Below, piece by piece: positions 10,314 to 55,312 of a stretch of DNA of 64,000 nucleotides (its first letter is position 1; every line of letters starts with the position of its first letter). Source of the stretch: Spiroplasma endosymbiont of Dioctria linearis. Its GTDB lineage: Bacteria > Bacillota_I > Bacilli_A > Mycoplasmatales > Mycoplasmataceae. The DNA lies in NCBI RefSeq assembly GCF_964030865.1, contig NZ_OZ034984.1, positions 496,001-560,000 on the forward strand, read 5' to 3'. The position numbers and the translations under genes are program-made. Under the pieces are notes generated by a model. The model made no database searches, had not been told where the DNA came from, and worked only from the letters and a program-made list of their open reading frames with translations.

Positions 10314-12656
10314 CTATACTTTAATTTTACTTTTTTCTTGTAGATTTTCTTTTATTTGAACTCTTTCAACTAACTTTTCATTTTCTTTTTCAAAATTTGC
10401 TAAGGAATTTATACCTATTTCATACAAGAATATTGTATAACCAACTTCAATTTCCTCATTATTATCAAATAAATCTGAGCATGTTAATTTTACTGTTATT
10501 TTATTATCTCCGTTAATTAAATGTAAAGGCTTAAGCATTTTATCAGGATTATTTATTATGCTCTCTATTTCAGCAAATAGTTCATCTTCCAACACTTTAT
10601 TTGGATTATATTTTTTCATTTTACTTATTAAACTATGTTGAGTTTTAAAGTTATCATCCGCACAATCCAAATCTTTTTTATTTCCGCTTTTATTTAATAA
10701 GTTATTTTTATTGTTTTCACAATTAGCATGTAATTTTAATTCTACTTCAGTTGATGAATACTCATCGCCAACATTAAAATCAGTATTACTTAAATAGGAA
10801 ATACTTGTTAAAGGTAAAAATGCTCTATAATATCTTTTTTTCTCTGCTTCTCTAAAAGGTAAAAAAATTTTAAATTGTGTTTCATAGCCTGGTTTTACAC
10901 GTGTTTTACCAATTATTATTTTTTTATTAATACTTGATTTGGTAGAAACACTAATTTGCTTAATTTGCTTCAATATTTTTTCATTTTCGCCATTACATGC
11001 ATTAATATATGATTTTATTTCATCAATACTAAAATTATATTGATCCATTAAATAAGCACATTTTCTAGCTAATAAAGGCGCAGCATATGAAGTTCCCTCA
11101 CTTAATTTATCTAAAAAACCTTCTTTATTATCAATAACTCAGAGAGTATCTTCTACATTTGAATTTTGACTTAAATCATTACCAAATTCATATGCATTTG
11201 GTTTATCAAAAAGATTAAATATTTTTTTCTTACCACTATAGCTACTTATTTTAATTTTTTTATATTTATCCATAAATAAAGAGCCTACTGTTAAAGATAA
11301 GATAGAGTCTCCTCCAATTGAAATATAGCCCTCATTTCCTGATGCTATTATTATTAATATTTTATATTTTTTTTGTAATAAATCTAATTGTCTACCTAAT
11401 TCAGAAATTCTTGGAGATGGAAATTCAAATAAAATTTGAGTAGACAAGTTTCAAATTTTTATATTTGAATTTTTTTTAATTATTTTACTAATTTTATTTA
11501 AAAATATTGATTGAGAGATTATTTGATTAGCAATAATTCCAAAATGTTTTACTTTAAAAATGCCTAGTCCATCTTTATATCCCTTATTATTTATAAGATC
11601 ATTTAATACTATTAATGATGAAACTGCCGTACCATGAGAATAATCAATTTCACTAATACCTAAACTGGAATCATTATGTACATCAATTAAATCACTAAGT
11701 GATTCTTGAAATTCACCATGCGAATCTATAACTCCTATATATGTATTAGAAATTTTATCATGATTTAGTTTAATAAATTCTCTTATCTCATCATTTGTAA
11801 ATTGCTCTTTTTGATATTTATGAGATTCTCAACTATCAATAATATGCCTATCGTTAGTTGCCAAATTAATTAAAAATGGAAATTCATCAGAAATTTTTTT
11901 TACAATATCAATATCCAAATTATAAATATTTCCATCCTGTATAACTTTTTGTTCATTATAAAGTTTGATATTTTTTTTAGATAAAATGTCAATCAGTTCA
12001 TCACTGTTTTTTATAGTATTAAATCTAACATACGCTTGATCACTTATTTTTGAAAAATCATGTTTATAAATTCAAAAGTTAACTAAATAAAATGTATCTT
12101 CAAAAACTCCTTTAATTCTAGTTTTATTACTTAATCCTGATTTTACAGGAAATAGAGTATCTTCTATTTCCTTATCTTTTACAGTAACTGATTTATTATT
12201 ATCTTCTAATATTAATTTACACCTTTTGACTGCATTTGAGTTATCTCTAAGAAAATTAATAACTAAATTTAAATTTCTAATAGTTCCATTAATATCATCC
12301 ATGTTTAATAAATAAGTAATTTCTAATTGATCTAATAATATTTCTTTATCAAATTGATATTTAGAGTCTATTTGAATTAATTTACTTTTTGATTTAAATA
12401 AATATTTAAATCTGTCTCCCTTATTAAGTAACCTATTAAATTTTATAGAAATTGGCAAATTTTCAAAAAAATCACTATATTTTTGAAAATCTATTTTTAG
12501 CTTTTCTAACTTTTCAATTAATTCATAATAATACCTTTTACTTAGTTTTATATTTCTAAATTTTGGAGTTCCTCCTGGTCTAAAATTATTTTTAATAAAT
12601 TGTTTATTATTATCTGAAAATTTAAAAAACTCTATATTATTTTTCATATATTTCAT
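10314..12656 (-). CDS. ietS: subtilisin-like S8 protease, IetS-like anti-phage protein
   Basis: 780 residues, cytoplasmic (no signal peptide). An intact S8 triad is visible: Asp311 in YIGVIDSHG, His341 in DYSHGTAVSS and Ser523 in EGTSYAAP, with the oxyanion Asn441 in IIIASGNEG. The N-terminal 300 residues carry RPGGTPKFRNI near residue 27, an opening seen in proteases paired with AAA+ ATPases. The last 240 residues form a separate domain. The start overlaps the ATPase stop by 20 bp, so the two are translationally coupled; Met4 is an alternative start. S8 protease plus AAA+ ATPase is the composition of the IetAS anti-phage system. An unrelated housekeeping protease is less likely given the partner and the missing export signal. 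Confidence 0.78.
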
Positions 12657-13737
12657 TACTTTCTATTTTATTTTTAACTGTTCTTCTATCTAGATCTAAT
12701 ATTTTAGAAATATCTGTTGTATTGAATCCAATTGATTCTAATTTCTTTGTATCACTTTTTAAATTATCATAATTAAATTTAAAATCAAAAGTATTTGCAA
12801 ATAATGAGGAATATATATTATTATCAAAAAATAAATTATCTTCAACAATGCTATCTATCACTGAATAGTTTAAATTATGTACATTTTTTGCTTCAATTAA
12901 TTTAATAATTTTAGATATAGTTATTTTATCAAACATTATATTATTTTGTTTTAATTTATTTATTAACGCTTTTTCAAATTCTTCTTTTGTAACATAGTCA
13001 AGTTCTAATTTAACATTAAATCTTCTTGTAATTGCAGAATCTATAAGCTTAACATTATTAGTAATAGATATTACAATAGCATTTTTTTTAATTGAATCCA
13101 ACATTATATTAAATGCACCAATTATTTTTCTATATTCATCATTTGTTGCAGTATTTCTATCACCTAGGATTGAATCTATTTCATCAATTAATACAATTCC
13201 CTTACCATCCACTTTTTCAATATCTTTTTTTAATTTCTCAAAATTTTTTTGAGTATCACCTAAAAAAGAAGAAATTACATTTGCAGATTTAACATAATAT
13301 AATGGAAGTCCAGTTTTCTTTGAAATATATTTAATTAATGTTGTTTTTCCTGTACCAGGTTTACCATATATAAGCATTTTTAAACTTACTTCTTTGTACA
13401 AGCCATTATTTAGTTTAGATATCATATAATTAATTTTCTCTATGAAAGGTGGTAAATAATTTATTATTTCCATGTCATTCTCGATATTTTCCAAAATATC
13501 TAAATCAGAAATTACAAAATGTTTTGTGATTTTTTTAGCATTAGTGATTTCAACTCTATTTATGCCTATAGCATTTATAAGATTTCTTTTTAAACTATCT
13601 GCATTAGGTATGCTTTTATCTATAATAGCCAGTATTTTTTTAACTTCCATAATAGTTATTATTTTATTTTTTTCATCAGAATTATTATAAATATTTTTTA
13701 TAGCATCGATAAATAGTTCATTTATTTTATTTTTCAT
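12637..13737 (-). CDS. ietA: AAA+ ATPase, IetA-like, with C-terminal helix-turn-helix
   Basis: 366 residues. Walker A GKPGTGKT at 125-132, Walker B GIVLIDEIDS at 180-189, a sensor strand ISITNN near 224 and the paired arginines ITRRF at 236-240 place it with FtsH/Vps4-type AAA+ proteins. The last 34 residues contain DISKILDLDRRTVKNKI, which has the pattern of a helix-turn-helix. ATG 13737 follows AGAGGTG. It is the first gene of the operon with the overlapping S8 protease. The array of 21-bp iterons starts 22 bp upstream of the start codon, so the HTH may bind them and control the operon; that link is my inference. In IetAS the ATPase is thought to control the protease. Confidence 0.78.
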   Translation of the reverse strand: MKNKINELFIDAIKNIYNNSDEKNKIITIMEVKKILAIIDKSIPNADSLKRNLINAIGINRVEITNAKKITKHFVISDLDILENIENDMEIINYLPPFIEKINYMISKLNNGLYKEVSLKMLIYGKPGTGKTTLIKYISKKTGLPLYYVKSANVISSFLGDTQKNFEKLKKDIEKVDGKGIVLIDEIDSILGDRNTATNDEYRKIIGAFNIMLDSIKKNAIVISITNNVKLIDSAITRRFNVKLELDYVTKEEFEKALINKLKQNNIMFDKITISKIIKLIEAKNVHNLNYSVIDSIVEDNLFFDNNIYSSLFANTFDFKFNYDNLKSDTKKLESIGFNTTDISKILDLDRRTVKNKIESNEIYEK

Positions 13738-13884: not shown

Positions 13885-14372
13885 AAGATAATTCTCTAAT
13901 TATACATAATATTAAAAAAACATAAAATAAATACAGAGGAATTTTTTATACGTCAAATATTACAGGTAATAAATCAAGACTGTTAAGTAACAAACTAAAA
14001 AAGTTAGTTGATAGACAATATAATGAAATATAACTTTTAGATAACTATCAATTAAATACGGTATATCTTATTCAACAACAATAAATCTTTGTATAAATTA
14101 TAAAATATAAGTAACTGAAGCTTTAATTTCAAAAATAGAAAATAAAACAACCATTTCAGTTTTAGACCAAATTGTTTAGAATTAAAAGATAAAGAGTAAG
14201 CAAATCTTAATAAAAATATTAAATTATTAGAAATGGAAATGAAGTTATAAAAAAGTAAATTTTATAAAAAGAAAAGTAAATTTATTAATGCTATAAATAT
14301 TTAAAAAAATAAAAAAGACATTTACAAATTATGACATATCTTTTATTAACTAATTTTATTATACAATATTTT
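13885..14372. other. gene-free remnant region
   Basis: No intact frame. A short plus-strand piece near 13950 reads NITGNKSRLLSNKLKKLVDR before hitting stops, so this is probably another decayed gene. Confidence 0.35.
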
Positions 14373-14951
14373 TCAATTTTTAATATCTATATTAAATTTT
14401 TTGCATTCTTTTTGAAAGTCATTATAATCAATAAATTTAAAATTATAGTTATTTTTTTTTATTTTTTTTCTTATATTTGAAAGAATTATTCTAAAATAAT
14501 TTATAGATGTTGGTATACATTTATTTTTAAATTTATAAACCAAAATACTTTGAAAATTACTAATATTAATATTATTTATTTTCAAAAAAATAATAGTTCC
14601 CCTAATCTTATTTACCATATTTTCAATAAAACATTCATACTTAGGTATACTAGCCGAAAAACCTTTATAAAAATCATTATTAGAACTACTATCTATAACA
14701 GATGAATGTAAATGTTTAAATTCAAACAAAAAGAAATCTTTATTTTTATTTATAGAAATACCATCAACAATTTTTTTATTATATTTTTTTAAAACTGCAA
14801 ATTTATCTATATTAACTGCTTTTGACTTACATTCTACAACACTGTGATACTCGTCATCTGTATCATGAGTTTCTAAAATATGACAAGTTGTCTTTTTACA
14901 TATAGTTTCACTATTAGAAATTTTTGTAAAGATATCAATAAAACTATTCAT
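14373..14951 (-). CDS. 192-residue PD-(D/E)XK-like nuclease, partner of the upstream ATPase
   Basis: I take ATG 14951, which overlaps the ATPase stop (ATGAATAG), giving an 8-bp overlap and coupled translation. Residues 60-80 read KIVDGISINKNKDFFLFEFKH: Asp63, then Glu77-x-Lys79 on a hydrophobic strand, the signature of PD-(D/E)XK nucleases. Residues after 80 alternate helix and strand (GTIIFLKINNINI; SILVYKF), as expected for this fold. There are no UGA codons. The N-terminal 60 residues have several cysteines (CKKTTC) and could be a separate knuckle. Nuclease function is inferred from the motif and from pairing with an SMC/OLD-type ATPase. Confidence 0.6.
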   Translation of the reverse strand: MNSFIDIFTKISNSETICKKTTCHILETHDTDDEYHSVVECKSKAVNIDKFAVLKKYNKKIVDGISINKNKDFFLFEFKHLHSSVIDSSSNNDFYKGFSASIPKYECFIENMVNKIRGTIIFLKINNINISNFQSILVYKFKNKCIPTSINYFRIILSNIRKKIKKNNYNFKFIDYNDFQKECKKFNIDIKN

Positions 14952-16425
14952 ATCTTTTGTACATTTCTGACAAATAATTAGTAATTTCAAAAGAGTCACT
15001 AAAATTATTAATTTTAGAGCAAAATTCAGATTCAGATTTTAAATAATTAAAAGATGTTTTTATACCAAATTTTTCTGATTCAAATTCAATAGAATCTACA
15101 ATAAAAGGGCTATGTGTTGTTAAAATGATTTTACATTTTGTTTCTTTACAAATCAAAAGCAAAATTTTAATAAATTCATTTTGCATATTTGGATGTAAAA
15201 AGTTCTCCGCTTCATCTAATATTACAAAAGAGTTTTCTTTAAATATACCAGCTCTTAAAATTTTTATTAATGATTGAAAAGTTAAAATACCCTTAGATAC
15301 ATTTTTTTCATTGATAAATTTACCCTTTTTCTTATAAGATCTGCTTTTTTTATCATATTCATTTTCAAAACCTATTTTATTAAAGATATTCATAATAATT
15401 TTCTCAATTTTTTCTTTTTCAGATGCTTCCAAATTATTAATATTCTCTTCTAATTCTTCATCGTTATATCTATAGCGATTAACTAAAGACTCCTTAACTT
15501 TTTGATAAAAATCTAATGAATAATTAGTTGAATAATCATTAACAGATACTTCTCTAAATTCCAATGGTCTTAAGAACATATTATTTATAAAATTATTTGC
15601 TATCCCTTCACAATAAGTAACATCGTTTATAATTCTATTTTTAATTTCTATTTCTTCTACTTTAATACTATTTTTATTAATTAAAATATCTATTTTATTA
15701 TTAAATAAATTCATAGAAATTTTTGAAATTTTACTATCATTAAATTTTGACATTATTTCATAATTACTTCCAAAAAGCGATTCTATATAACTTTTAATTC
15801 TTTCATTTAAAAATGAAATTTTTATATTTTTCATTTTTAAATTATTTTTTTTAATTATTTTTAAATTTCATTTTAATTCTCTCAGAATTAAATTAATTCT
15901 ATCAATTATTCTAAATGATAATCTTTCTTCAAAAGATTTATTAATTATTTCATCTAAACAGTCATCAATGATTTCTACATATAAATTAATAGTTTCATAA
16001 ATTTCACTTAAACTTGAATCATCATTACTTTTAATAAAATTGGATTCCAAAATTAATTTCGTTATATTTGAAATTAAATTATCTTCCTCAATATTCTCCT
16101 TAAATTTAAAGTAATCTATTTTGTCCAAAAATTTTTTATCAGTGATTTCTTTCTCAAATTTCTCAAAAATTTTATTAAACTTTTGAGAAATATTATTACT
16201 TTCAATTAAATCCAAATAATAATTAGTAAGTTTTTTAACTGCTCTAGCAATTATACTTTGAAGACTATACTCTCTATATTCTTTTTGAATTTTTATCATC
16301 ATATAAATAGTTTTATTTAAAGTGCTTTTACCTGAATCATTCATTCCACAAATCAATGTAAGATCTGAAATCTCTAGTTTATTTTTATTTTGAAATAAAC
16401 ATATATTTTCTATATTTAAATTCAT
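14944..16425 (-). CDS. OLD/SMC-like AAA ATPase of a two-gene module
   Basis: 493 residues, read through one UGA Trp at about codon 186. Walker A GMNDSGKST at 27-35, an ABC-type signature-like VSKGILTFQ near 376-384, Walker B SFVILDEAENFLHP at 399-412 and the switch His438 in TTHSPFIVD. This is the AAA_15/AAA_21 layout found in OLD, PtuA, AriA and retron ATPases, with a charged, probably coiled insert of about 340 residues between the motifs. No TOPRIM domain follows; instead the next gene supplies a PD-(D/E)XK-like protein. The start follows GAGGATAGA. A two-component immune ATPase-nuclease is the likely role. Septu, Gabija and PARIS have similar ATPases but different partners. Confidence 0.7.
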
Positions 16426-17868: not shown

Positions 17869-18120
17869 TTTTTTTTATATTTTTCATCTAATTTTAAATT
17901 CTGTTGCTTTTTTTCTTTATATTTTTCTCTAACTTCAATCCATTTTTCTCCAATTATTTGCTTAACTTTTTTCATATGTTTTGAATAATCCCTAAATTCT
18001 TCTCATGAATATTCATTTTTCTTTATTCTTCTAATAATATTCAATTTATTAGTTTTATTATTTAAATTACATATTACTATATCATATGAAAATTCAACAG
18101 CTCCATCGTTATCTGCTTTT
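17869..18120 (-). pseudogene. C-terminal fragment of a lost gene
   Basis: One frame reads DNDGAVEFSYDIVICNLNNK, then NEYSWEEFRDYSKHMKKVKQ and IGEKWIEVREKYKEKK to a stop. The front of the gene is missing at the junction with the IS3-type remnant on its right, which probably removed it. Confidence 0.45.
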
Positions 18121-18328
18121 TTATTGTAATTGCAGATGTAGAATTATTACAATCTATTTCTTTGAGCTAAACTCTTGTTAAAATAACGTAAAAAAATGGT
18201 ATTGGGGATGCTAAGTAACATTATTTCCTAAAATTTTGGATCATTTCGTTTCGTGTGCATCCACTTTTTAAGATTATATTTATACTATTAAAAATTTTAA
18301 CAAATTTATAAATACAACTTCTAAAATA

Positions 18329-19233
18329 TTAATCCTTATAAAATTTATTACCAAATATTAAATAAAAATACTTTTTAACTCATCTATGTGTTTGTTCTAC
18401 AAATTTATTTCCTTTAAAACCTGAAGCTGAATTTGATCTAATTATATTATGTTGCTTACAAAATTTTTTTGCTTCTTTACTTATAAATGCAGAACCTAAA
18501 TCATTATGCATAATAATTTTCTTTATTGAACCTAAAATCATTTTGCTTACTAAACCTTCTAACATTTCAAGAGTTACTAGTATATTTTCAGAGTTGCCGA
18601 CTGAATATGAACTAATTTCATTAGAGTAAAAGTCATATGCAGGTAAAAATAAGCGTTTTGTTTTAACTCCTCTAATATAAATATTTTTAAATCATGTACC
18701 ATCAATTCCAATCTTTTCTAAATATTTATTAGAGATATAATCTCCTTTTATAAGATCTAAAGAGGTATGTTTCTTATGATTACTTATTCCCATTCTTGTT
18801 TTTGATTTAGAAGAAGCTATTTATTTTTTTTAATTTCAATAAAACTTCCGTTCTAAGCTCAATAATTGTCTCTCTAGAAAGATTTATATTGAAGTCTTTT
18901 AATATCTTTAATCTAGCTTTTTCGGCTTTTCCTTCTTAAGTTCTATTAAATCAGCACTTCGCTTAATTTGTGCTTCTAATTCAAAAAGCTTCTTTTTCAA
19001 TTCTTTATTCTCTTCGCTATATTTGCTAACTTTATTTTAAAGTCTAACTTCATTGGTTTTACTACGTTTTTCCTATCAAATACTTTAATTTCAGATGACT
19101 CATGATATTTTTGATATCAATCTAAAATACTTGAATTAGCTTTTATATTATATTTAATTGCAATATCTTTTAATTTAATTCCATTAATATAATTATTAAC
19201 AGCTTGAGTTTTTAACTCATTTGAATATTTCAT
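18329..19233 (-). pseudogene. frameshifted IS3-family transposase (orfA + orfB)
   Basis: OrfA starts at ATG 19233: MKYSNELKTQAVNNYINGIK, then LKDIAIKYNIKANSSILDWY, the OrfA helix-turn-helix. Its Lys/Glu-rich coiled-coil region is broken by a frameshift. OrfB follows with HKKHTSLDLIKGDYIS, GIDGTWFKNIYIRGVKTKRL (first catalytic Asp region), NSENILVTLEMLE, MHNDLGSAFISKEAKKFCKQ (second Asp, here HND) and GFKGNKFVEQTHRW near the third acidic position. Several stops and frame changes separate the parts, so it cannot encode an active transposase. The family call is from the HTH plus the DDE layout. Confidence 0.75.
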
Positions 19234-23169: not shown

Positions 23170-23427
23170 ATGAAATTAAATAATAAAACAATTGATGTTT
23201 GAAATAAAGCAAAAGATTGTGGCTGTCAAGAATCAGATTGTGATACAAATCATAAATTATGTGGAATATGTAGCAATAAAATAGTTTATACAGCACATAA
23301 AAGCAATCAGCCTAATTCTAAATTTGCGTGAGATATTGATCATATAATTCCTTTAAAGAATGGTGGAACTGATGATATTAATAACTTACAAATTTCCCAC
23401 GTAGTGTGTAATTCAAAAAAAAATTAA
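23170..23427 (+). CDS. small HNH endonuclease-like protein, 85 residues
   Basis: Reads MKLNNKTIDVWNKAKDCGCQ, then a CxxC (CGIC), FAWDIDHIIPLKNGG (the catalytic DH of the HNH motif) and NNLQISHVVCNSKKN, the second metal-site region with H-x2-C-N. Two UGA Trp. This is a complete minimal beta-beta-alpha-metal nuclease with a short N-terminal C-x-C. AGAGAGAAAT lies before ATG 23170. A leader with a nine-codon frame and an upstream terminator precedes it. A paralogue of the same architecture is at 32501-32764. Solo HNH genes of this size are found in phages and mobile elements; the target is unknown. Confidence 0.8.
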
Positions 23428-32500: not shown

Positions 32501-32764
32501 CTATTTATTGCATTTCTTATGCACTGCTTTAAGATTTTCCTTTTGATTTGTACCACCTTGTGCTTTGGGATTTAAATGCTCGACATTTCAACAATTTGAA
32601 TTATTAGGTTGTCATCCTTGATATGCACCATATTCCATTTGTTCCTTACATCTAAAGCATTTTTTATGACCTCTATCGCTAGTATCTTGTTGTGCTCCAC
32701 AATTGCATTTTGGTGCATTCTCTCAGGCATGTCTTGCAATTGTTGGTAAATCTTTTTTTGCCAT
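32501..32764 (-). CDS. small HNH endonuclease-like protein, paralogue of 23170-23427
   Basis: 87 residues from ATG 32764 (GAGGAAATAAAG upstream). MAKKDLPTIARHAWENAPKC is followed by NCG, CFRC, CWNVEHLNPKAQGG (catalytic-site H of the HNH motif) and NLKAVHKKCNK. Three UGA Trp. It aligns with the protein at 23170 end to end: W-x-x-A, C-x-C, C-x2-C, W-x-[DE]-H-x2-P, GGT, N-L, H-x2-C-N. The first catalytic residue is Glu where the other has Asp. A stand-alone minimal nuclease; it lies between the two-TM array and the tandem lipoprotein array. Confidence 0.78.
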
Positions 32765-33020: not shown

Positions 33021-33512
33021 TTATTCATGGATTGTTTCTTGTTTAGCTCATTTTTGAATTTCCAACATATACTCTTTTGTATTATTATTTAAAGTTTCAT
33101 CCTTTTGTCACCCTTCAATAAATATATCAAAACTATCTGTTTGATCTCTAAAATAAGTTACTTTTGAGATTTTTGAGTTTAAAGATTCATAGTCTAATTG
33201 CATCATTTTATAAGATTCATACGCTCTTATAAATGTTTCAAATATTCAACTTTTTTGTCAAGCATCGCTATTTAATTTTATTAATTTTTCTTGTTCTTTA
33301 CTACACTCATTACATTCATCAAGTTCCTTTGCTCAAATTGCATTCATTTTTTCTTGTTCTAAAACATAGTTATCTAATGCTTCTACAATATCATCTCCAG
33401 ATTTTGGTTGATCTGGTAATTCAAATTTTTTCTCACTTTGACATGATATAACAGATGTTGAAGTTGAAGCAAATAAAGTTATTGCTGTAAATAAAGTTAA
33501 TAATTTTTTCAT
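33021..33512 (-). CDS. tandem lipoprotein, unit 1
   Basis: 163 residues, last copy of a ten-unit array. Signal MKKLLTLFTAITLFASTSTS with lipobox VISC, then SEKKFELPDQPKSGDDIVEA, a conserved C-x2-C (LDECNECSKEQ), KSWIFETFIRAYESYK and a C terminus rich in Trp coded by UGA (FIEGWQKDE, EIQKWAKQETIHE). Surface-anchored, probably all-helical after the linker. AAAAGGAGAAAT precedes every start at the same distance. It differs from its neighbours mainly in the middle third, around the segment after SKVTYFRDQTDSFD. Function unknown. Confidence 0.85.
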
Positions 33513-33578
33513 AATTTCTCCTTTTAAATGAATTAATAAATATAGAATTATGTATAAATTAAATTACTATTTTTCTTT

Positions 33579-34070
33579 TTATTCATGGATTGTTTCTTGT
33601 TTAGCTCATTTTTGAATTTCCAACATATACTCTTTTGTATTATTATTTAAAGTTTCATCCTTTTGTCACCCTTCAATAAATATATCAAAACCTTCTGTTT
33701 CAATTCTAGAATAAGTTCCACTTGATATTTTTGAATTTAAAGATTCATAGTCTAATTGCAACATTTTATAAGATTCATAAGCTCTTATAAATGTTTCATA
33801 TATTCAACTTTTCTGTCAAGCTTCACTATTTAATTTTATTTTATTTTGTTCTTCTTTACTACATTCCTTACATTCATCAAGTTCTTTTGCTCAAACTGAA
33901 TTCATTTTTTCTTGTTCTAAAACATAGTTATCTAATGCTTCTACAATATCATCTCCAGTTTTTGGTTGATCTGGTAATTCAAATTTTTTCTCACTTTGAC
34001 ATGATATAACAGATGTTGAAGTTGAAGCAAATAAAGTTATTGCTGTAAATAAAGTTAATAATTTTTTCAT
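33579..34070 (-). CDS. tandem lipoprotein, unit 2
   Basis: 163 residues, intact. Same signal and lipobox. The linker reads QPKTGDD (Thr), a marker shared only with unit 4. The middle reads KISSGTYSRIETEGFDIF; WAKELDECKECSKEEQNKIK carries the C-x2-C. One of the copies with an Ile/Tyr-rich FIRAYESYKMLQLDYESLNS helix. Confidence 0.85.
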
Positions 34071-34136
34071 AATTTCTCCTTTTAAATGAATTAATAAATA
34101 TAGAATTATGTATAAATTAAATTACTATTTTTCTTT

Positions 34137-34628
34137 TTATTCATGGATTGCTTCTTGTTTAGCTCATTTTTGAATTTCTAACATATACTCTTTTGTATTA
34201 TTATTTAAAGTTTCATCCTTTTGTCATTCTTCAATAAATTCATCAAAGTAATCTTTATTATCTCTACTATATATCATTTCTGAAGTCTTTGATTCTAATG
34301 TTTCATAATTCAATTGCAACATTTTATAAGATGTAAAAGCTCTTATAAAAGCTTCATATATTCAACTTTTCTGTCAAGCATCACTGTTTAGTTTAATTTG
34401 ATTTTGCTCTTCCTTACTACATTCCTTACATTCATCCAGTTCTTTTCCTAAAATTTCATTGACACGCTTTTGTTCAAAACGATATTTATCTAATGCTTCT
34501 ACAATATCATCTCCAGATTTTGGTTGATTTGGCAATTCAAATTTTTTCTCACTTTGACATGATATAACAGATGTTGAAGTTGAAGCAAATAAAGTTATTG
34601 CTGTAAATAAAGTTAATAATTTTTTCAT
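34137..34628 (-). CDS. tandem lipoprotein, unit 3
   Basis: 163 residues, intact. The variable segment reads DKYRFEQKRVNEILGKELDE. As far as I can compare by eye its whole DNA unit is identical to unit 5, 1,116 bp away, showing a recent duplication of a two-unit block. The middle has LESKTSEMIYSRDNKDYFDE. Confidence 0.85.
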
Positions 34629-34694
34629 AATTTCTCCTTTTAAATGAATTAATAAATATAGAATTATGTATAAATTAAATTACTATTTTTCTTT

Positions 34695-35186
34695 TTATTC
34701 ATGTATTGCTTCTTGTTTAGCTCATTTTTGAATTTCTAACATATACTCTTTTGTATTATTATTTAAAGTTTCATCGTTTTGTCACCCTTCAATAAATTCA
34801 TCAAAAGTATCTGTTTGATTTCTAAAATAAGTTACCTTTGATATTTTTGAATTTAAAGATTCATAGTCTAATTGCATCATTTTATAAGATTTAAAAGCTC
34901 TTATAAATGTTTCAAATATTCAACTTTTTTGTCAAGCATCGCTATTTAATTTTATTTTATTTTGTTCTTCTTTACTACATTCCTTACATTCATCAAGTTC
35001 TTTTGCTCAAACTGAATTCATTTTTTCTTGTTCTAAAACATAGTTATCTAATGCTTCTACAATATCATCTCCAGTTTTTGGTTGATCTGGTAATTCAAAT
35101 TTTTTCTCACTTTGACATGATATAACAGATGTTGAAGTTGAAGCAAATAAAGTTATTGCTGTAAATAAAGTTAATAATTTTTTCAT
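34695..35186 (-). CDS. tandem lipoprotein, unit 4
   Basis: 163 residues, intact mosaic. The N-terminal half (QPKTGDD, EKMNSVWAKELDECKE) matches unit 2; the C-terminal half (KVTYFRNQTDTFDEFIEGWQ) matches units 6 and 10. Such a switch within one gene is the mark of gene conversion or unequal crossing over. Confidence 0.85.
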
Positions 35187-35252
35187 AATTTCTCCTTTTA
35201 AATGAATTAATAAATATAGAATTATGTATAAATTAAATTACTATTTTTCTTT

Positions 35253-35744
35253 TTATTCATGGATTGCTTCTTGTTTAGCTCATTTTTGAATTTCTAACAT
35301 ATACTCTTTTGTATTATTATTTAAAGTTTCATCCTTTTGTCATTCTTCAATAAATTCATCAAAGTAATCTTTATTATCTCTACTATATATCATTTCTGAA
35401 GTCTTTGATTCTAATGTTTCATAATTCAATTGCAACATTTTATAAGATGTAAAAGCTCTTATAAAAGCTTCATATATTCAACTTTTCTGTCAAGCATCAC
35501 TGTTTAGTTTAATTTGATTTTGCTCTTCCTTACTACATTCCTTACATTCATCCAGTTCTTTTCCTAAAATTTCATTGACACGCTTTTGTTCAAAACGATA
35601 TTTATCTAATGCTTCTACAATATCATCTCCAGATTTTGGTTGATTTGGCAATTCAAATTTTTTCTCACTTTGACATGATATAACAGATGTTGAAGTTGAA
35701 GCAAATAAAGTTATTGCTGTAAATAAAGTTAATAATTTTTTCAT
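35253..35744 (-). CDS. tandem lipoprotein, unit 5
   Basis: 163 residues, intact; sequence identical to unit 3 as far as read, including silent sites, so the duplication is recent. Contains DKYRFEQKRVNEILGKELDE and the C-x2-C. Confidence 0.85.
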
Positions 35745-35810
35745 AATTTCTCCTTTTAAATGAATTAATAAATATAGAATTATGTATAAATTAAATTACT
35801 ATTTTTCTTT

Positions 35811-36302
35811 TTATTCATGTATTGCTTCTTGTTTAGCTCATTTTTGAATTTCTAACATATACTCTTTTGTATTATTATTTAAAGTTTCATCGTTTTGTCA
35901 CCCTTCAATAAATTCATCAAAAGTATCTGTTTGATTTCTAAAATAAGTTACCTTTGATATTTTTGAATTTAAAGATTCATAGTCTAATTGCATCATTTTA
36001 TAAGATTTAAAAGCTCTTATAAATGTTTCAAATATTCAACTTTTTTGTCAAGCATCGCTATTTAATTTAATTTTATTTTGTTCTTCTTTACTACATTCCT
36101 TACATTCATCCAACTCCTTTGCCAAAATTATGTCCACTTTTTCTTGTTCTAAAACATAGTTATCTAATGCTTCTACAATATCCTCTCCAGATTTTGGTTG
36201 ATTTGGTAATTGAAATTTTTTCTCACTTTGACATGATATAACAGATGTCGAAGTTGAAGCAAATAAAGTTATTGCTGTAAATAAAGTTAATAATTTTTTC
36301 AT
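35811..36302 (-). CDS. tandem lipoprotein, unit 6
   Basis: 163 residues, intact. The linker is KKFQLPNQPKSGEDIVEALD (Gln and Glu unique to this copy). The segment EQEKVDIILAKELDECKECS is shared with unit 10, and the C-terminal half is shared with units 4 and 10. Confidence 0.85.
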
Positions 36303-36367
36303 AATTTCTCCTTTTAAATGAATTAATAAATATAGAATTATGTATAAATTAAATTACTATTTTCTTT

Positions 36368-36859
36368 TTATTCATGGATTGCTTCTTGTTTAGCTCATTT
36401 TTGAATTTCTAACATATACTCTTTTGTATTATTATTTAAAGTTTCATCCTTTTGTTTTGATGCAATAAATATATCAAAGTAGTCCGTATTAACTATAGTA
36501 TAAGTTTTTTCTGATATTTTTGATTCTAAAATTTCATATTTTAATTGCAACATTTTATAAGATGTAAAAGCTCTTATAAAAGCTTCATATATTCTACTTT
36601 TCTGTCAAGCATCACTATTTAATTGTATTAATTTTTCTTGCTCTTTACTACATTCATTACATTCATCAAGTTCATTTTTTCAAATTTCATCCGCTTGACT
36701 TTTTTCAGTAGTAATTTTATCTAATGCTTCTACAATATCATCTCCAGATTTTGGTTGATTTGGCAATTCAAATTTTTTCTCACTTTGACATGATATAACA
36801 GATGTTGAAGTTGAAGCAAATAAAGTTATTGCTGTAAATAAAGTTAATAATTTTTTCAT
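36368..36859 (-). CDS. tandem lipoprotein, unit 7
   Basis: 163 residues, intact and the most diverged copy: DKITTEKSQADEIWKNELDE in the variable segment, LKYEILESKISEKTYTIVNT in the middle, and FIASKQKDE where the others have GWQ. Its repeat unit is 557 rather than 558 bp (one T fewer in the spacer). Confidence 0.85.
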
Positions 36860-36925
36860 AATTTCTCCTTTTAAATGAATTAATAAATATAGAATTATGT
36901 ATAAATTAAATTACTATTTTTCTTT

Positions 36926-37417
36926 TTATTCATGGATTGCTTCTTGTTTAGCTCATTTTTGAATTTCTAACATATACTCTTTTGTATTATTATTTAAAGT
37001 TTCATCCTTTTGTCATCATTCAATAAATTCATCAAAGTAATCTTCATTATCTCTACTATATATCATTTCTGATGTCTTTGATTCCAATGTTTCATAATTC
37101 AATTGCAGCATTTTATAGCTTCTATAACCTCTTATAAATGCTTCATATATTCAACTTTTCTGTCAAGCATCACTGTTCAGTTTAATTTTATTTTGCTCTT
37201 CTTTACTACATTCCTTACATTCATCCAGTTCTTTTCCTAAAATTTCATTGACACGCTCTTGCTCAGAACGATATTTATCTAATGCCTCTACAATATCATC
37301 TCCAGATTTTGGTTGATCTGGTAATTAAAATTTTTTCTCACTTTGACATGATATAACAGATGATGAAGTTGAAGCAAATAAAGTTATTGCTGTAAATAAA
37401 GTTAATAATTTTTTCAT
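36926..37417 (-). pseudogene. tandem lipoprotein, unit 8, nonsense mutation
   Basis: Full-length copy of unit-3 type (DKYRSEQERVNEILGKELDE), but codon 31 is TAA where every other copy has GAA (KKF-stop-LPDQ). The signal also has TSSSVISC. Translation would yield a 30-residue peptide. The rest is open to the normal stop, so the lesion is young. Confidence 0.85.
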
Positions 37418-37483
37418 AATTTCTCCTTTTAAATGAATTAATAAATATAGAATTATGTATAAATTAAATTACTATTTTTCTTT

Positions 37484-37973
37484 TTATTCATGGATTGCTT
37501 CTTGTTTAGCTCATTTTTGAATTTCTAACATATACTCTTTTGTATTATTATTTAAAGTTTCTTCCCTTTGTCATCCTTCAATATATTCATCAAAAGTACT
37601 TGTTTCTCTTTTTACATAAGTTACATTTGAAACTTTGGAATTTAAAGTTTCATAGTCTAATTGCAACATTTTATAAGATTTATATGCTCTTATAAATGTT
37701 TCATATATTCTACTTTTTTGTCAAGCTTCACTATTTAATTTTATTAATTTTTCTTGTTCTTTACTACATTCATTACATTCATCAAGTTCCTTTGCTCAAA
37801 TTACGTTCATTTTTTCTTGTTCTAAAATAGTTATCTAATGCTTCTACAATATCATCTCCAGATTTTGGTTGATTTGGTAATTCAAATTTTTTCTCACTTT
37901 GACATGATATAACAGATGTTGAAGTTGAAGCAAATAAAGTTATTGCTGTAAATAAAGTTAATAATTTTTTCAT
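37484..37973 (-). pseudogene. tandem lipoprotein, unit 9, frameshift
   Basis: Two bases are missing after EALDNY (AAAATAG in place of AAAACATAG on the plus strand), shifting the frame and ending it at residue 63. The remainder is conserved: its C-terminal part reads KVSNVTYVKRETSTFDEYIE in the original frame. The unit is 556 bp from the next start, as the deletion predicts. Confidence 0.85.
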
Positions 37974-38039
37974 AATTTCTCCTTTTAAATGAATTAATAA
38001 ATATAGAATTATGTATAAATTAAATTACTATTTTTCTTT

Positions 38040-38531
38040 TTATTCATGGATTGCTTCTTGTTTAGCTCATTTTTGAATTTCTAACATATACTCTTTTGTA
38101 TTATTATTTAAAGTTTCATCCTTTTGTCACACTTCAATAAATTCATCAAAAGTATCTGTTTGATTTCTAAAATAAGTTACCTTTGATATTTTTGAATTTA
38201 AAGATTCATAGTCTAATTGCATCATTTTATAAGATTTAAAAGCTCTTATAAATGTTTCAAATATTCAACTTTTTTGTCAAGCATCGCTATTTAATTTAAT
38301 TTTATTTTGTTCTTCTTTACTACATTCCTTACATTCATCCAACTCCTTTGCCAAAATTATGTCCACTTTTTCTTGTTCTAAAACATAGTTATCTAATGCT
38401 TCTACAATATCATCTCCAGATTTTGGTTGATCTGGTAATTCAAATTTTTTCTCACTTTGACATGATATAACAGATGTTGAAGTTGAAGCAAATAAAGTTA
38501 TTGCTGTAAATAAAGTTAATAATTTTTTCAT
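38040..38531 (-). CDS. tandem lipoprotein, unit 10 (first of the array)
   Basis: 163 residues, intact. It lies 20 bp after the stop of the 700-residue surface protein gene, so it is probably in the same transcript. Contains EQEKVDIILAKELDECKECS (shared with unit 6) and KVTYFRNQTDTFDEFIEVWQ. The upstream spacer differs from the other nine where it joins the larger gene. Confidence 0.85.
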
Positions 38532-44725: not shown

Positions 44726-47284
44726 ATGTCTAGGGAAGAAAAGATTTTTAATTATTGAATAAAACTTTTAAATGACTTATTTAGTTTAGATCAAAAACAA
44801 ATAGAAAAAGAAAATCTATTAAATTCATCTAAAATAAAAAATCAATTAGCAGTTACAAAAAATGATAATAATAGTGTTTATAGCAGTATAAGGTATTTTT
44901 TTAATAAGCATTTTCAAAATAACTATAAAAATTTAAATAAAGAAAGTATTTTATATTACTACATAAATAGCTCTTATAAAAACTGAGACAATATAAAAAA
45001 TAGAAATTTTATATACCCTTTTGGAATAAATAATAGTCAAAAAAAAGCTGTGGAAAATGCTTTTAAATCTAATTTTTCTATAATTCAAGGTCCGCCAGGA
45101 ACAGGAAAAACTCAAACAATATTAAATATTGTTTCAAATATTCTTTTAGATAAAAAAACAGTTGCTATTGTTTCAAATAATAATTCAGCTATTGATAATA
45201 TATTTTATAAATTGAATCCCAAAATTAAGGATAGTAATAATTATAAAGAACAACTAGAAGTAATTTGATTTTTATCTTCTTTCTTAGGGTCATTTTCAAA
45301 AAATAAAAATTACTTTACATTGGAAATGCAAGAAAAAATAGCATCTGCAAAAGAAAAATGAAAAAAAGCATTTGAAAAATCCAATGTAAATATGGAAATT
45401 AGTGTGCAAAATGATAAATTTCAAGTACTAATTGAAGAAATTGAAGAAATTGAAATTTTAAAGAAAAAAATATTAAGAGATGAAAAAGTATTACCTAAAG
45501 TTAAAAAAGAAAAAGAAATATATGAATCAAAAATTATCTTAAAATATAAAAATAACACTAATTTATTGAAATTATCCCTTGATAAATTAAATAAATTTTA
45601 TATTAAAATTAAGGTCTACAAAAAAGATAAGCTATCATGATGATTTAAATTAAAAAATAAATTTAAATATAAGCTACCTAAGAATTTTTTTAAATACGAC
45701 TTCATATCAGAAATATACTTTCACGTTCTAAATAAAAAAACTAAAGAGCTAAAAGAAAACTTAATTAAAAATAAAAAATTATTAAATGAGATTGATAATA
45801 ATCAATTAGATGACTTAATAAAAATATCAAAAGAAATATTATATAACTCTATTTATGAAAATTATATGTCAGAAGAAAAAATAAACTTAACAGCAAATAA
45901 CTTTACTGAAGTTAGTTCTGAATTTATAAAATTATTTAATAAACAGCCAATAGTTCTAAGTACAATTTTTTCATTAATAAATTCTAAGCCAGCAGATGTA
46001 CTATATGATTATTTAATAATAGATGAAGCTTCACAAACAGACATGTTAGCTAGCATTGCTTCAATGGCTTGTGCAAAAAACATAATAGTAGTTGGTGATT
46101 TAAAACAGTTATCTCAAGTTAACTCCCCTAACTATAAAAATTACTTTGAAGAAAATAAACTATTTTTAAATGAAGGATATGAATACTGAGAAAATAATAT
46201 TTTGAAATCTCTTATAAAAATATATGGTGAAAAGATTCCTAATCAACTATTAAGAGAACATTATAGATGTGATCCTGCTATCATTGAATTTTGTAATCAA
46301 AAGTACTACAACAATGAACTGATTATTATGACTGAATCAGAAAATGAACAAAGTCCTTTTGAATTAATAGTTGGTGAATCTTTATACTATACTGACACAA
46401 ATAACTCTAAAACTAGTAGAAAAGAGTTAGAAAATATTAAACAATATCTTAGTGATAATAAAATTAGTGACATAGGAATTATTAGCCCTTTTAGAGATCA
46501 AGCTAATATCTTAAATAAACAATTAGGTACAGATAAGATAATTGCTAATACAATTCATGCTTTTCAAGGACAAGAAAAAGATTCAATACTATTTGCTGTT
46601 ACAAGACAATCAATAAAAGGAAAAGATGATTTTGTTTCTAATCCAAAATTAATAAATGTAGCTGTCTCAAGAGCAAAAAATAAATTTATACTTGCATATT
46701 CAAAAAATATTAATAGTTGTCCTGACAATGATATCAAAGACTTAATAAATTATATTCAATTTAATTTTCCAAATAGCAAAGAAGTTTATAAAAAGAATAC
46801 TGAGTTTTATATTTTATCAAAAGAATATAATAATGATTTAATAGAGTTTATTAAAAACTATAATAAAAACCACTTCAATGGTGCTAAAGAACCAACTGAA
46901 ATAATAATACATACAGTTCTAGAAAAAATTATATCGCTGGAGGAATTTAATAACTTAGATATTACCCTATTCAAAAAATTAAGTCATATTATTCCTAAAG
47001 CTATAGAGAATGATATTTTTAATAAAAGAGAAAAAGAATTTTTAAATCATCACTGATCTCATATTGATTTTCTGGTTTATGATAAATTTAGTTTTGAACC
47101 TGTCTTAGCAATTGAAGTCGATGGATATACATTTCACAGAAAAGAAAAACAAAAATGAAGAGATAATTTAAAAGATAAGGCTTTAAAAATTCAAAATATA
47201 CCTATCATGAGAATTAGTACAGATACATATAAGAAAATTGGACTTTCAATAATTAATAAAATAAGAGAAATAAAAAATAAATAG
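44726..47284 (+). CDS. UPF1-like SF1 helicase fused to a C-terminal PD-(D/E)XK nuclease domain
   Basis: 852 residues, intact through UGA Trp codons. Helicase motifs: I GPPGTGKTQT (122-131), II IIDEASQTD (431-439), III VVGDLKQLSQV, IV LLREHYRCDP, V NTIHAFQGQEKD and VI NVAVSRAKNKF (643-653). A coiled, Lys/Glu-rich insert of about 200 residues separates motifs I and II, as in the UPF1/DNA2 group. Residues 779-852 read HIDFLVYDK (Asp781), VLAIEVDGYTFH (Glu797, Asp799) and IPIMRI, the DUF2726/DUF559-like restriction-endonuclease fold. Such fusions are common in bacterial defence islands. It stands alone on the plus strand with TAAGGAG before ATG 44726; TATAAT at 44701-44706 is a likely -10. Confidence 0.85.
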
Positions 47285-52453: not shown

Positions 52454-54256
52454 CTATTTTTTATCAAACAAAAGAATATTTTCACTCTTTGGTTTAGTGC
52501 CTTTCATATTTTCTATATCAATCTTTATAAAACGCGCATCTTCAAAAGCTGTTCCTGAAACAAGACATTGACCTGGTACCAATGTTGGAAGCAAACCTAT
52601 TTTGTCGTTTCCAACATAAGAGTTAGTTTGCTTAATGATATCAATATCCTTATCGTTTATTAACTTATGAATAATAAAATTATGCATTTGAGATAAAATA
52701 TCTGTTGGAATATCTGCTGGTCTTTGACTTGCCAAAGTTAAAAATAACCCATATTTTCTTCCCTCTCTTATAATCTTTTTTAATATATTAAGTGAACTTA
52801 TATTTTCATCATCCTCTGATTTTACTGTTACGTTATGTGCTTCATCTATAATTAAATTTATATAATTTTTGTTTTTTTCAGCTTTTTTTATTTTTCCTAA
52901 AATTAAACTAGTTATAAAGTTTATTATTATATTTTTATTTGAATCAGTATAATTTTGTAGTTCAAAAATACTAATCCCATTGTCAAAAAAATCAAAAAAA
53001 TCAAAAAAATCATTTTCAAAATTTAAATCAAAAATATCATTAAATTCATCACGTACTAACAAACTTCTATTATAGACTGGCATTAATCAATCATCGTTTC
53101 CACCGTCAATTACAATATGATACAAAATTAAAAAAACAAAAAAATTTATATCCTTTGAAATATTTGTTTGTAATTTAATAGAATTTTGAAATATTTCAGT
53201 TTTAATAGTTTCATTAATTTTTATATCCGGTTCTTGATTTAAGAAAATTTCTCCTATATGTGCTGACCCTGTTCCTCCATCTTTTTTGGCTATTCTAATT
53301 TTATTTAAATTTTTTAAAAATAATTTTCAACTTTCGTCGTCTTTAAATAAAAAATTTGAGTTTTCTATAATAGTTTTAAGCTTAAAAAGTCAATCAAATT
53401 TTTTATCTTTACAAATTTTAAATATTATATCTTGTAAATATTTCTCTACTTCATTTTTTTCTTCTTTTATTATCTTTTTATATTCTTTTCATGATTTCTT
53501 AATTAATGGAGCTTGAGTCTTTGTTGTAGCATTTAGAACATTACATCATATATCTCCATTAATTTCATTAAAATTTATAGTTATTTTATTTTTATTATCC
53601 AAATATATTGTTTTTGAAAAATTAGATAGATTATTTTCACATATTGAATTTGAATATTCATTATTATAATCAAATAAAAATAGTTTGACTTTTATATGTG
53701 AATTAAAAAGTTCTCTGTTTTCTATAAGATCACTAAAAATTTTGGATAAGGTTACAGATTTTCCAGATCCAGTATTTCCAAAAATACCTAGATGAGAGGC
53801 AAAAAAATTATTTAGATTTGTTTTAACATTAAAATTATCATTTTCTAGATCTTTTCCTATTTCATATTCATTCTTCAATTTCAAATCATTGTTAATTATT
53901 TTGAGATCTTCCAACGTTAATTCATAAACTCTACTTCCTAAAATTATAGGAATTCCAAAACTTCCTTTTATAAAATTTTCAGTATTTTTTTTATTTATAA
54001 AAGAGCCATAAATAGTAGCATCTAATTCCTTATATATTTCTCCACCTGTGCTTTTATTTCTTATATACTGTGCACCAATTATTTTAAGTATTATAGTATT
54101 AAATCCAGTTTGAATTTTTACTAATGTATTTGCATGGGGGTTAAAATTTTTTGTTTTTAAATTGTAAGGAGAATCTGAATCTGATTCAAAACAATAAATG
54201 TAAACTTTTCTGACATCCAAATTTACTTTGGTTACATAACCTATTGCGTCTTCCAT
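52454..54256 (-). CDS. herA: HerA-like DNA translocase of a SIR2-HerA defence pair
   Basis: 600 residues, open throughout with several UGA Trp. N-terminal HAS-barrel-like region (AIGYVTKVNLDVRKVYIY; GIPIILGSRVYELT). Walker A GIFGNTGSGKSVT at 157-169, a Walker-B strand YINLIIDEAHN at 465-474, and GLFLTLASQRPADIP with an Arg-finger-like SQRP as in HerA/FtsK ATPases. An odd acidic DFFDFFDFFDN lies at 417-426. It starts six bases after the SIR2 stop, with GAGAGGGAT as ribosome site. In the known system HerA hexamers assemble with SIR2 subunits into an anti-phage NADase/nuclease complex. Confidence 0.85.
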
Positions 54257-54262
54257 TTTTTA

Positions 54263-55312
54263 TTAATCCCTCTCATTTATTTGCTTATTGTCATTATTTA
54301 TAAGTGAAAATAAATTTTTCAAAGTTTTGAATACATTTGAAGTTTTAAAACTATATAAATCCATTTCAACTTCACTTTTATTAATTCTTTCTAAAATTAC
54401 ATTATCAAAATCCTTTTCTTCTTCTAATATATTAGAAACTAATCCATTACTTGTGTTTGAAAAAAATTCCATATTTATTATTATATTTGCATCATTAAAA
54501 GAATCTCTCAAAATTTCATTGATGTGTTTATCGCCAAAAGAATAGCCAATTACAAATATAATATTTTTTCCTTGTTTATTATCTAACAAATTTCTCATAT
54601 TTATATAACCTTTAAAAATTTTCATATCAGATAAAAAATTACTATATTTTGTTCTTCCAGGAATAATAGGTTCATTTTTATTTCCATGAATTTTTTGAAT
54701 ATAATAAGTTGGAATAAAAGTCTTTGTTGAATCATGATAAACTGTATAATTAAAAACGTTTTCATCAAATCCTTCTTTATCAATTATGTACGAAGGCATC
54801 TTGTTTTTTAACAATATTTTTTGAAGTAAATTATCATAATTTAAAGTTCAAAAATATGTTTTCTTATTTTGTGTTAGATTGCCATTACCTTTATTTTTAT
54901 TTATATTTAATTTTTTTAATGAGACTATAAATGAGTTTATTTCTTCAAGATCATTTAATTTCAAATCCATTTTACTATTTTTTAAAGATTTTACAATTTC
55001 ATCATAAGTTTCAAGATTATCTAACTCCAAATCCATTTTAATATTTTCAAAAAATGAGTTTATTATTTCGTCTTTTACTTTATCTTCACTTTCAGAAATC
55101 ATATCATCCATTCAGCTTTCAAAATCTTCAGTAATTGAACTTGTTTTGGAGTTAACTATTTTAGTAATACCCTTTATAGTTTTTTTTAAATCACTTGCCA
55201 AAGGTAAAACTCCATTATTAAATCCTGCACCTATTACAAAATGCAAATTATTTGAAGATAAAATCCTTTTAAATTCTTCAAAGCTTAACAAAATTTTTTT
55301 ATTATTATTCAT
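54263..55312 (-). CDS. SIR2-like NADase of a SIR2-HerA defence pair
   Basis: 349 residues. Seen: LHFVIGAGFNNGVLPLASDL (NAD-binding GAG at 28-30), FWTLNYDNLL (Asn158 and Asp160 of the SIR2 TxNYD motif), QKIHGN (His209 at the catalytic position) and IIFVIGYSFGDKHINEIL, the GxSxxD/H-type second NAD-contact motif of SIR2_2 proteins. A helical insert of about 80 acidic residues lies at 60-140, with two copies of a near repeat (KMDLELDNLETYDEIVKSLK and KMDLKLNDLEEINSFIVSLK). AGGAG before ATG 55312. It forms an operon with herA. Expected to deplete NAD during infection. Confidence 0.87.

Follow-up and report, generated by a model that had tools for sequence, protein, structure and literature searches.

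What is the pair of overlapping genes in the genome of the Spiroplasma endosymbiont of Dioctria linearis, one encoding an ATPase and the other a small nuclease-like protein, and does it belong to a known type of anti-phage defense? An earlier note on this DNA had proposed an uncharacterized two-gene immune-like module. We analyzed the locus within a window of 64,000 nucleotides (positions 496001–560000 of a 1.23-Mb contig). With a probability of about 80%, we read it as an intact but divergent pair of genes for anti-phage defense, of the "OLD-ABC ATPase + novel REase" or WonAB-like type, where homology to WonB is proposed from the architecture and the published description.

Layout of the locus

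Interrupted reading frames indicated that the organism reads TGA as Trp (code 4), and the features of the locus under this code are listed in Table 1. The ATPase frame needs this reading at W186. For the partner, the code changes the length of the product. The earlier note had given 192 residues, which is wrong because positions 14373-14375 are a TGA that is read as Trp (W193); the protein is 9 residues longer, and its stop lies at 14346 rather than at 14373. The overlap of start and stop that the note described is present and spans 8 bases reading ATGAATAG, with the ATPase stop codon TAG at 14946-14944 and the partner start codon ATG at 14951-14949. This overlap suggests that translation of the two genes is coupled. 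A promoter and terminator scan found no terminator at the locus, and promoter-like sites were no commoner than in shuffled sequences.

Table 1. Features of the ATPase–partner locus and of the adjacent operon, in window coordinates.
Feature	Position	Strand	Basis
OLD-type ABC ATPase, putative sensor/regulator, 493 aa	14944..16425	−	code 4 ORF, Pfam, motifs invariant in relatives
PD-(D/E)XK-like nuclease partner, putative effector, 201 aa	14346..14951	−	code 4 translation, invariant residues, AlphaFold/Foldseek
Overlap of both genes, 8 bases, ATGAATAG	14944..14951	−	sequence and translations
IetA-like AAA ATPase, 366 aa, adjacent separate defense operon	12637..13737	−	PADLOC IetA 8.6e-37
IetS-like subtilase, 780 aa, adjacent separate defense operon	10314..12656	−	PADLOC IetS 2e-32; Pfam Peptidase_S8 1.9e-11

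The ATPase

The translated ATPase contains Walker A GMNDSGKST (K33), the signature NVSKG, Walker B within FVILDEAENFLHP (LDEAE; D404, E405) and the H-loop TTHS (H438), all of them invariant among its relatives. Pfam assigned AAA_21 (1.2e-14) and AAA_15 (2.4e-14) to the protein and detected no further convincing domain, neither a TOPRIM nor another nuclease domain; a TOPRIM domain is absent because only 55 residues remain after the H-loop. Both the complete motif set and the lack of TOPRIM were thus described correctly in the earlier note, and of its label "OLD/SMC-type" the OLD part stands, while "SMC-type" is a looser label than "OLD-type ABC." PADLOC matches of the ATPase were scattered over NsnB, AriA, PD-T4-4_A, HEC-02A, and PtuA. 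The class of the protein is clear, but the PADLOC score alone assigns it to none of these families.

Identity to the nearest relatives is ∼30-35%. The window ATPase and 69 of 74 family members share a distance of 33 from the Walker-B Glu to the H-loop His. After the H-loop, 56 of 80 relatives (loci L047-L126) carry a conserved tail, DVT..I..IY.KL..P(L/F)..L (L..P(F/Y/L)..L), which is found in none of 14 HEC-02A proteins and is missing from the window ATPase and from one relative, L003. This tail is possibly the site where the nuclease docks. In another relative, L010, a Walker A G is replaced by D.

Active site and predicted fold of the partner

The partner family had no match in Pfam or NCBIfam, a sequence search of the PDB returned nothing meaningful, and the single PADLOC match of the window partner was HEC-02B (E 0.0059). 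D49, D63, E77, and K115 are invariant in 71 partner homologues, and K79 is kept in at least 90% of them. The Asp63 and Glu77-x-Lys79 that the earlier note had singled out are present, and the conservation of this residue set supports its view of the partner as PD-(D/E)XK-like. As read from the alignment, the order acidic–acidic–ExK–Lys is that of PD-(D/E)XK nucleases. Between ExK and K115, ∼24 additional residues are inserted in the window partner.

AlphaFold modeled the window partner with moderate confidence (pLDDT 72.7), and Foldseek returned no significant match; the hits of this weak model (CD38 and others) were at noise level and were discarded. The model of a distant family member, L047, reached a pLDDT of 91.9 and a pTM of 0.86. 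When its PDB matches were counted and classified by hand, 44 among the top 50 belonged to the PD-(D/E)XK superfamily, with E-values of 0.01–0.3 and none below 0.001, and the other 6 were TIM barrels. Bunya- and arenavirus cap-snatching endonucleases ranked first (best E 0.012, not significant), followed by Hjc, N.BspD6I, Cdn1, SfsA, Avs3, and others. The bunyavirus enzymes have a similar active-site order, D ... PD ... (D/E)xK ... K, and we claim a common origin with them no further than the PD-(D/E)XK superfamily. A search of BFVD gave scattered endonucleases, none of them significant. With no E-value below 0.001, the resemblance of the L047 model to PD-(D/E)XK nucleases is suggestive but short of formal significance.

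Recurrence of the pair

Among 298 genomes of the order, related ATPases occurred in 8 other genomes, each with a partner-like gene beside it that bears the signature D-A/S-I … (L/F)IEFK. The pair is apparently intact in 7 of these further Mollicutes genomes; in the eighth (L008) TAA stops interrupt the ATPase frame. Four other Bacilli carry the pair as well. A scan of GTDB with the ATPase alignment yielded 80 loci, which span Bacillota, Spirochaetota, Planctomycetota, Actinomycetota, Bacteroidota, Campylobacterota, Pseudomonadota, Synergistota, and archaea, and the partner lies directly downstream of the ATPase in ∼76 of the 80, some frames being broken. Five loci (L011, L013, L014, L020, and L023) were excluded since their ATPases belong to other systems or have no partner. 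Broken copies also include three in which the partner is split across two frames (L057, L076, and L086).

Because most partners of the final profile came from these same 80 loci, we used an independent profile built solely from 10 Mollicutes and Bacilli sequences. It matched in 67/80 loci, always directly downstream of the ATPase, and gave no other match across 763 kb; the search of 7 whole genomes with the partner profile gave 0 or 1 match each. Since the matches lie directly downstream, with none elsewhere and at most one per genome, the ATPase and its partner are a real unit, beyond chance. The neighborhood search proposed in the earlier note thus finds the partner nearly always present, and the idea of a recurrent two-gene immune-like module gains support from Mollicutes, Bacilli, and the GTDB loci alike.

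Mobility and genomic neighborhood

The pair is present on three IMG/VR contigs (L127, L128, and L129) and on a phage-labeled GenBank record, MT835532 (L046), where we judged the roles of surrounding genes by eye from their translations. It is flanked by lysogeny genes and a recombinase in L127, sits just ahead of terminase genes in L128, lies near structural and lysis-type genes in L129, and falls within a mobile-element-like stretch in L046. Its distribution in the host genus is patchy (2 of 20 genomes), and in other Mollicutes it forms a lone cassette amid housekeeping genes at differing sites. These observations show that the two genes are inherited together and carried horizontally, phage contigs included. 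A plasmid collection held no match to the ATPase or the partners. In one of the other genomes (L153, G085), a translated repeat VLLLHNFTGYHN with unique spacers at 18072-19001 resembles a CRISPR array and lies ∼7.5 kb from the pair of that genome.

In the window, transposase fragments lie near the pair, and the region is AT-rich. The IetAS-like operon that the earlier note placed next door is indeed there, 609 bases from the pair, with the PADLOC scores of Table 1. Its genes overlap (10314-13737, minus strand) and score well under the NCBIfam equivalog cut-offs, for instance 100 versus 510 bits for the IetA-like ATPase, which marks the operon as divergent. Elsewhere in the window there is a SIR2-HerA-type defense pair at 52454-55312 (minus strand), in which a SIR2 protein of 349 aa is followed by a HerA-like ATPase of 600 aa (PADLOC HerA 4.6e-75). 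A Superfamily-1 helicase at 44726-47284 (plus strand; PADLOC MkoA 8e-52) has a DUF2726/MTES_1575 restriction-endonuclease-like C-terminus and is possibly a single-gene defense protein. We also observed a tandem array of at least 8 full copies of near-identical 163-aa lipoproteins (MKKLLTLFTAITLFASTSTSVISC...) at 33021-38531 (minus strand), and two solitary small HNH-like proteins of 85 and 87 aa at 23170-23427 (plus strand) and 32501-32764 (minus strand).

Comparison with WonAB and other described systems

WonAB, a prophage operon of V. cholerae, pairs an OLD-type ABC ATPase with a PD-(D/E)xK nuclease (Nat Microbiol 2025, PMC12137116). Its defense requires both genes, the ATPase residues of WonA and K71 of WonB, and acts by abortive infection, in which translation is inhibited, genomic DNA stays intact, and tRNA or rRNA is the suggested target (PMC12137116). 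WonB toxicity depends on WonA, which excluded a simple antitoxin model, and WonB was modeled as docking onto a C-terminal extension of WonA (PMC12137116). The authors note a likeness to PD-T4-4 and link the system to a class from Krishnan et al. 2020, "OLD-ABC ATPase + novel REase," which occurs in 0.96% of bacterial genomes and whose definition we take via the WonAB paper (PMC12137116); a review restates this description (PMC12409358). The earlier note knew of no named system with such a partner, and this does not hold, since the architecture had already been published under that class name with WonAB as its tested representative (PMC12137116, PMC12409358) and a related candidate, HEC-02, is also in PADLOC.

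We compared the window pair with WonA and WonB (AWB73976) by architecture and published description; for these proteins, as for SHI83489/SHI83462, the comparison covered published residue numbers. Shared with WonAB are the two-gene operon, in which an OLD-type ABC ATPase lacking TOPRIM precedes a small protein with a PD-(D/E)xK active site, the carriage by prophages, and the Walker-B Glu to H-loop His distance of 33 (E300 and H333 in WonA). On the other hand, the window proteins are divergent and come from a Mollicute that reads TGA as Trp, the C-terminal tail of the ATPase is shortened, and the partner has its insertion between ExK and the helix Lys. Because WonB was modeled on the C-terminal extension of WonA and the tail of the window ATPase is shortened, the docking of the partner may, by analogy, differ from that of WonAB in this branch. 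We read the window pair as a further, divergent member of a described defense type and not as a new kind of system.

Other systems share part of this architecture. PD-T4-4, reportedly an E. coli system from Vassallo et al. 2022, likewise has two genes for an ATPase and a nuclease, and the window ATPase matches PD-T4-4_A at 6e-14 (its relatives up to 1.7e-25); however, PD-T4-4_B is matched by 0/71 partners in PADLOC at E ≤ 0.01, and we rejected this identity for the partner. PARIS (AriAB), Septu (PtuAB), Gabija (GajAB), OLD, and AbiLi/RloB have a related AAA_15/AAA_21 ATPase module but differ in their effectors (TOPRIM, HNH, RloB, or, in Gabija, a UvrD-like helicase together with the TOPRIM of GajA), none of which occurs in the window pair. 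Septu, PARIS, and Gabija were likewise set aside, as searches of Pfam, NCBIfam, and PADLOC linked the partner to no HNH (PtuB), TOPRIM (AriB), or UvrD-like (GajB) protein.

Alternative explanations

HEC-02 is a candidate system in PADLOC, and the pair might belong there instead of with WonAB and the OLD-ABC + novel REase group. Because one HEC-02B profile found no match in 245 genomes of the window organism's phylum, we took true HEC-02 loci from Pseudomonadota (16 of 200 genomes). These combine an ATPase with an adjacent ∼180-aa protein in which D27, D42, E55, K57, and K92 follow the partner's D / D / ExK / K layout, and hhalign places the catalytic residues of HEC-02B and the partner profile in the same register. 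The window ATPase matches HEC-02A at 1.5e-13, the partner has the HEC-02B match given above, and several HEC-02B models match other partners (best 1.6e-6). Yet the hhalign probability is 27–37%. HEC-02A proteins are shorter (330-390 aa) with a Glu-to-His spacing of 32, not 33, in 14/14, and HEC-02B has a conserved C-terminus of its own, WN..FP..PV.R, and KDP after ExK. In a FastTree phylogeny, the 14 HEC-02A proteins all group apart from the rest with support 100, on which ground we rejected the ATPase as a member. Membership in HEC-02 is therefore very improbable to us, and a distant common ancestry of the two is likely. Our literature search found no published description of HEC-02. Within PADLOC, the model PDLC04146, labeled HEC-02B, matches ATPases (7e-9 to 3e-17) and looks mislabeled, and PDLC04145, labeled HEC-02A, matches one partner.

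The architecture could also be WonAB-like with a different target. The ATPase would then detect either phage DNA or replication intermediates, and DNA would be broken down by the partner, much as many restriction-type systems do. PD-(D/E)XK is chiefly a DNA-nuclease fold and OLD-family ATPases are frequently linked to DNA, both of which count for DNA cutting, and the Foldseek list of the L047 model includes Hjc resolvases, N.BspD6I, and Avs3. Nevertheless, the best structural matches of that model, though not significant, are RNA endonucleases, and WonAB leaves chromosomal DNA intact while stopping translation (PMC12137116), so that we hold a DNA-cutting effector to be unlikely but worth keeping in mind. 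Small, overlapping, patchy, and mobile genes would also suit a pair that resembles a toxin-antitoxin system or serves plasmid stability and does not act specifically against phage. We find this reading highly improbable given that WonB toxicity needs WonA in WonAB (PMC12137116), that the plasmid collection had no match, and that both the phage contigs, with the pair beside lysogeny or packaging genes, and the adjacent IetAS-like operon fit defense. Lastly, the AT-rich surroundings, the transposase fragments, and the broken copies in L008, L057, L076, and L086 could point to a decaying, non-functional remnant, but under code 4 neither window frame is truncated or lacks a catalytic residue, leaving this the least probable explanation we considered.

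Proposed mechanism

Returning to a WonAB-like defense module, the overlapping genes encode an ATPase that itself lacks a nuclease domain and a partner whose D-D-ExK-K residues, like its predicted fold, are consistent with a PD-(D/E)XK nuclease. By analogy, mostly with WonAB, a dimer of the ATPase would bind and stabilize the nuclease and sense infection, and ATP binding and hydrolysis would license the nuclease. The nuclease would then cut a cellular nucleic acid, with tRNA or rRNA likelier than chromosomal DNA, and this cleavage would halt translation and growth and thereby abort phage replication. We favor an RNA target because of the WonAB precedent and of a structural likeness, itself not significant, to nucleases that cut RNA. 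A bolder version, which we regard as quite doubtful, is that the Mollicutes pair forms a branch with a mechanism of its own. There, a PD-(D/E)XK enzyme whose D-D-ExK-K site is cap-snatching-endonuclease-like would work as an RNA endonuclease governed by an OLD ATPase that lost its docking tail, and sensing and docking would be unlike those of WonAB.

Significance

With this pair, the range of a recently recognized ATPase–nuclease type of defense comes to include wall-less bacteria whose genetic code is altered, and it extends to many phyla, past the mainly Gram-negative span given for WonAB. The alignment of 71 sequences, the four invariant residues, and the confident fold of the family make the target of the effector, RNA or DNA, directly testable.
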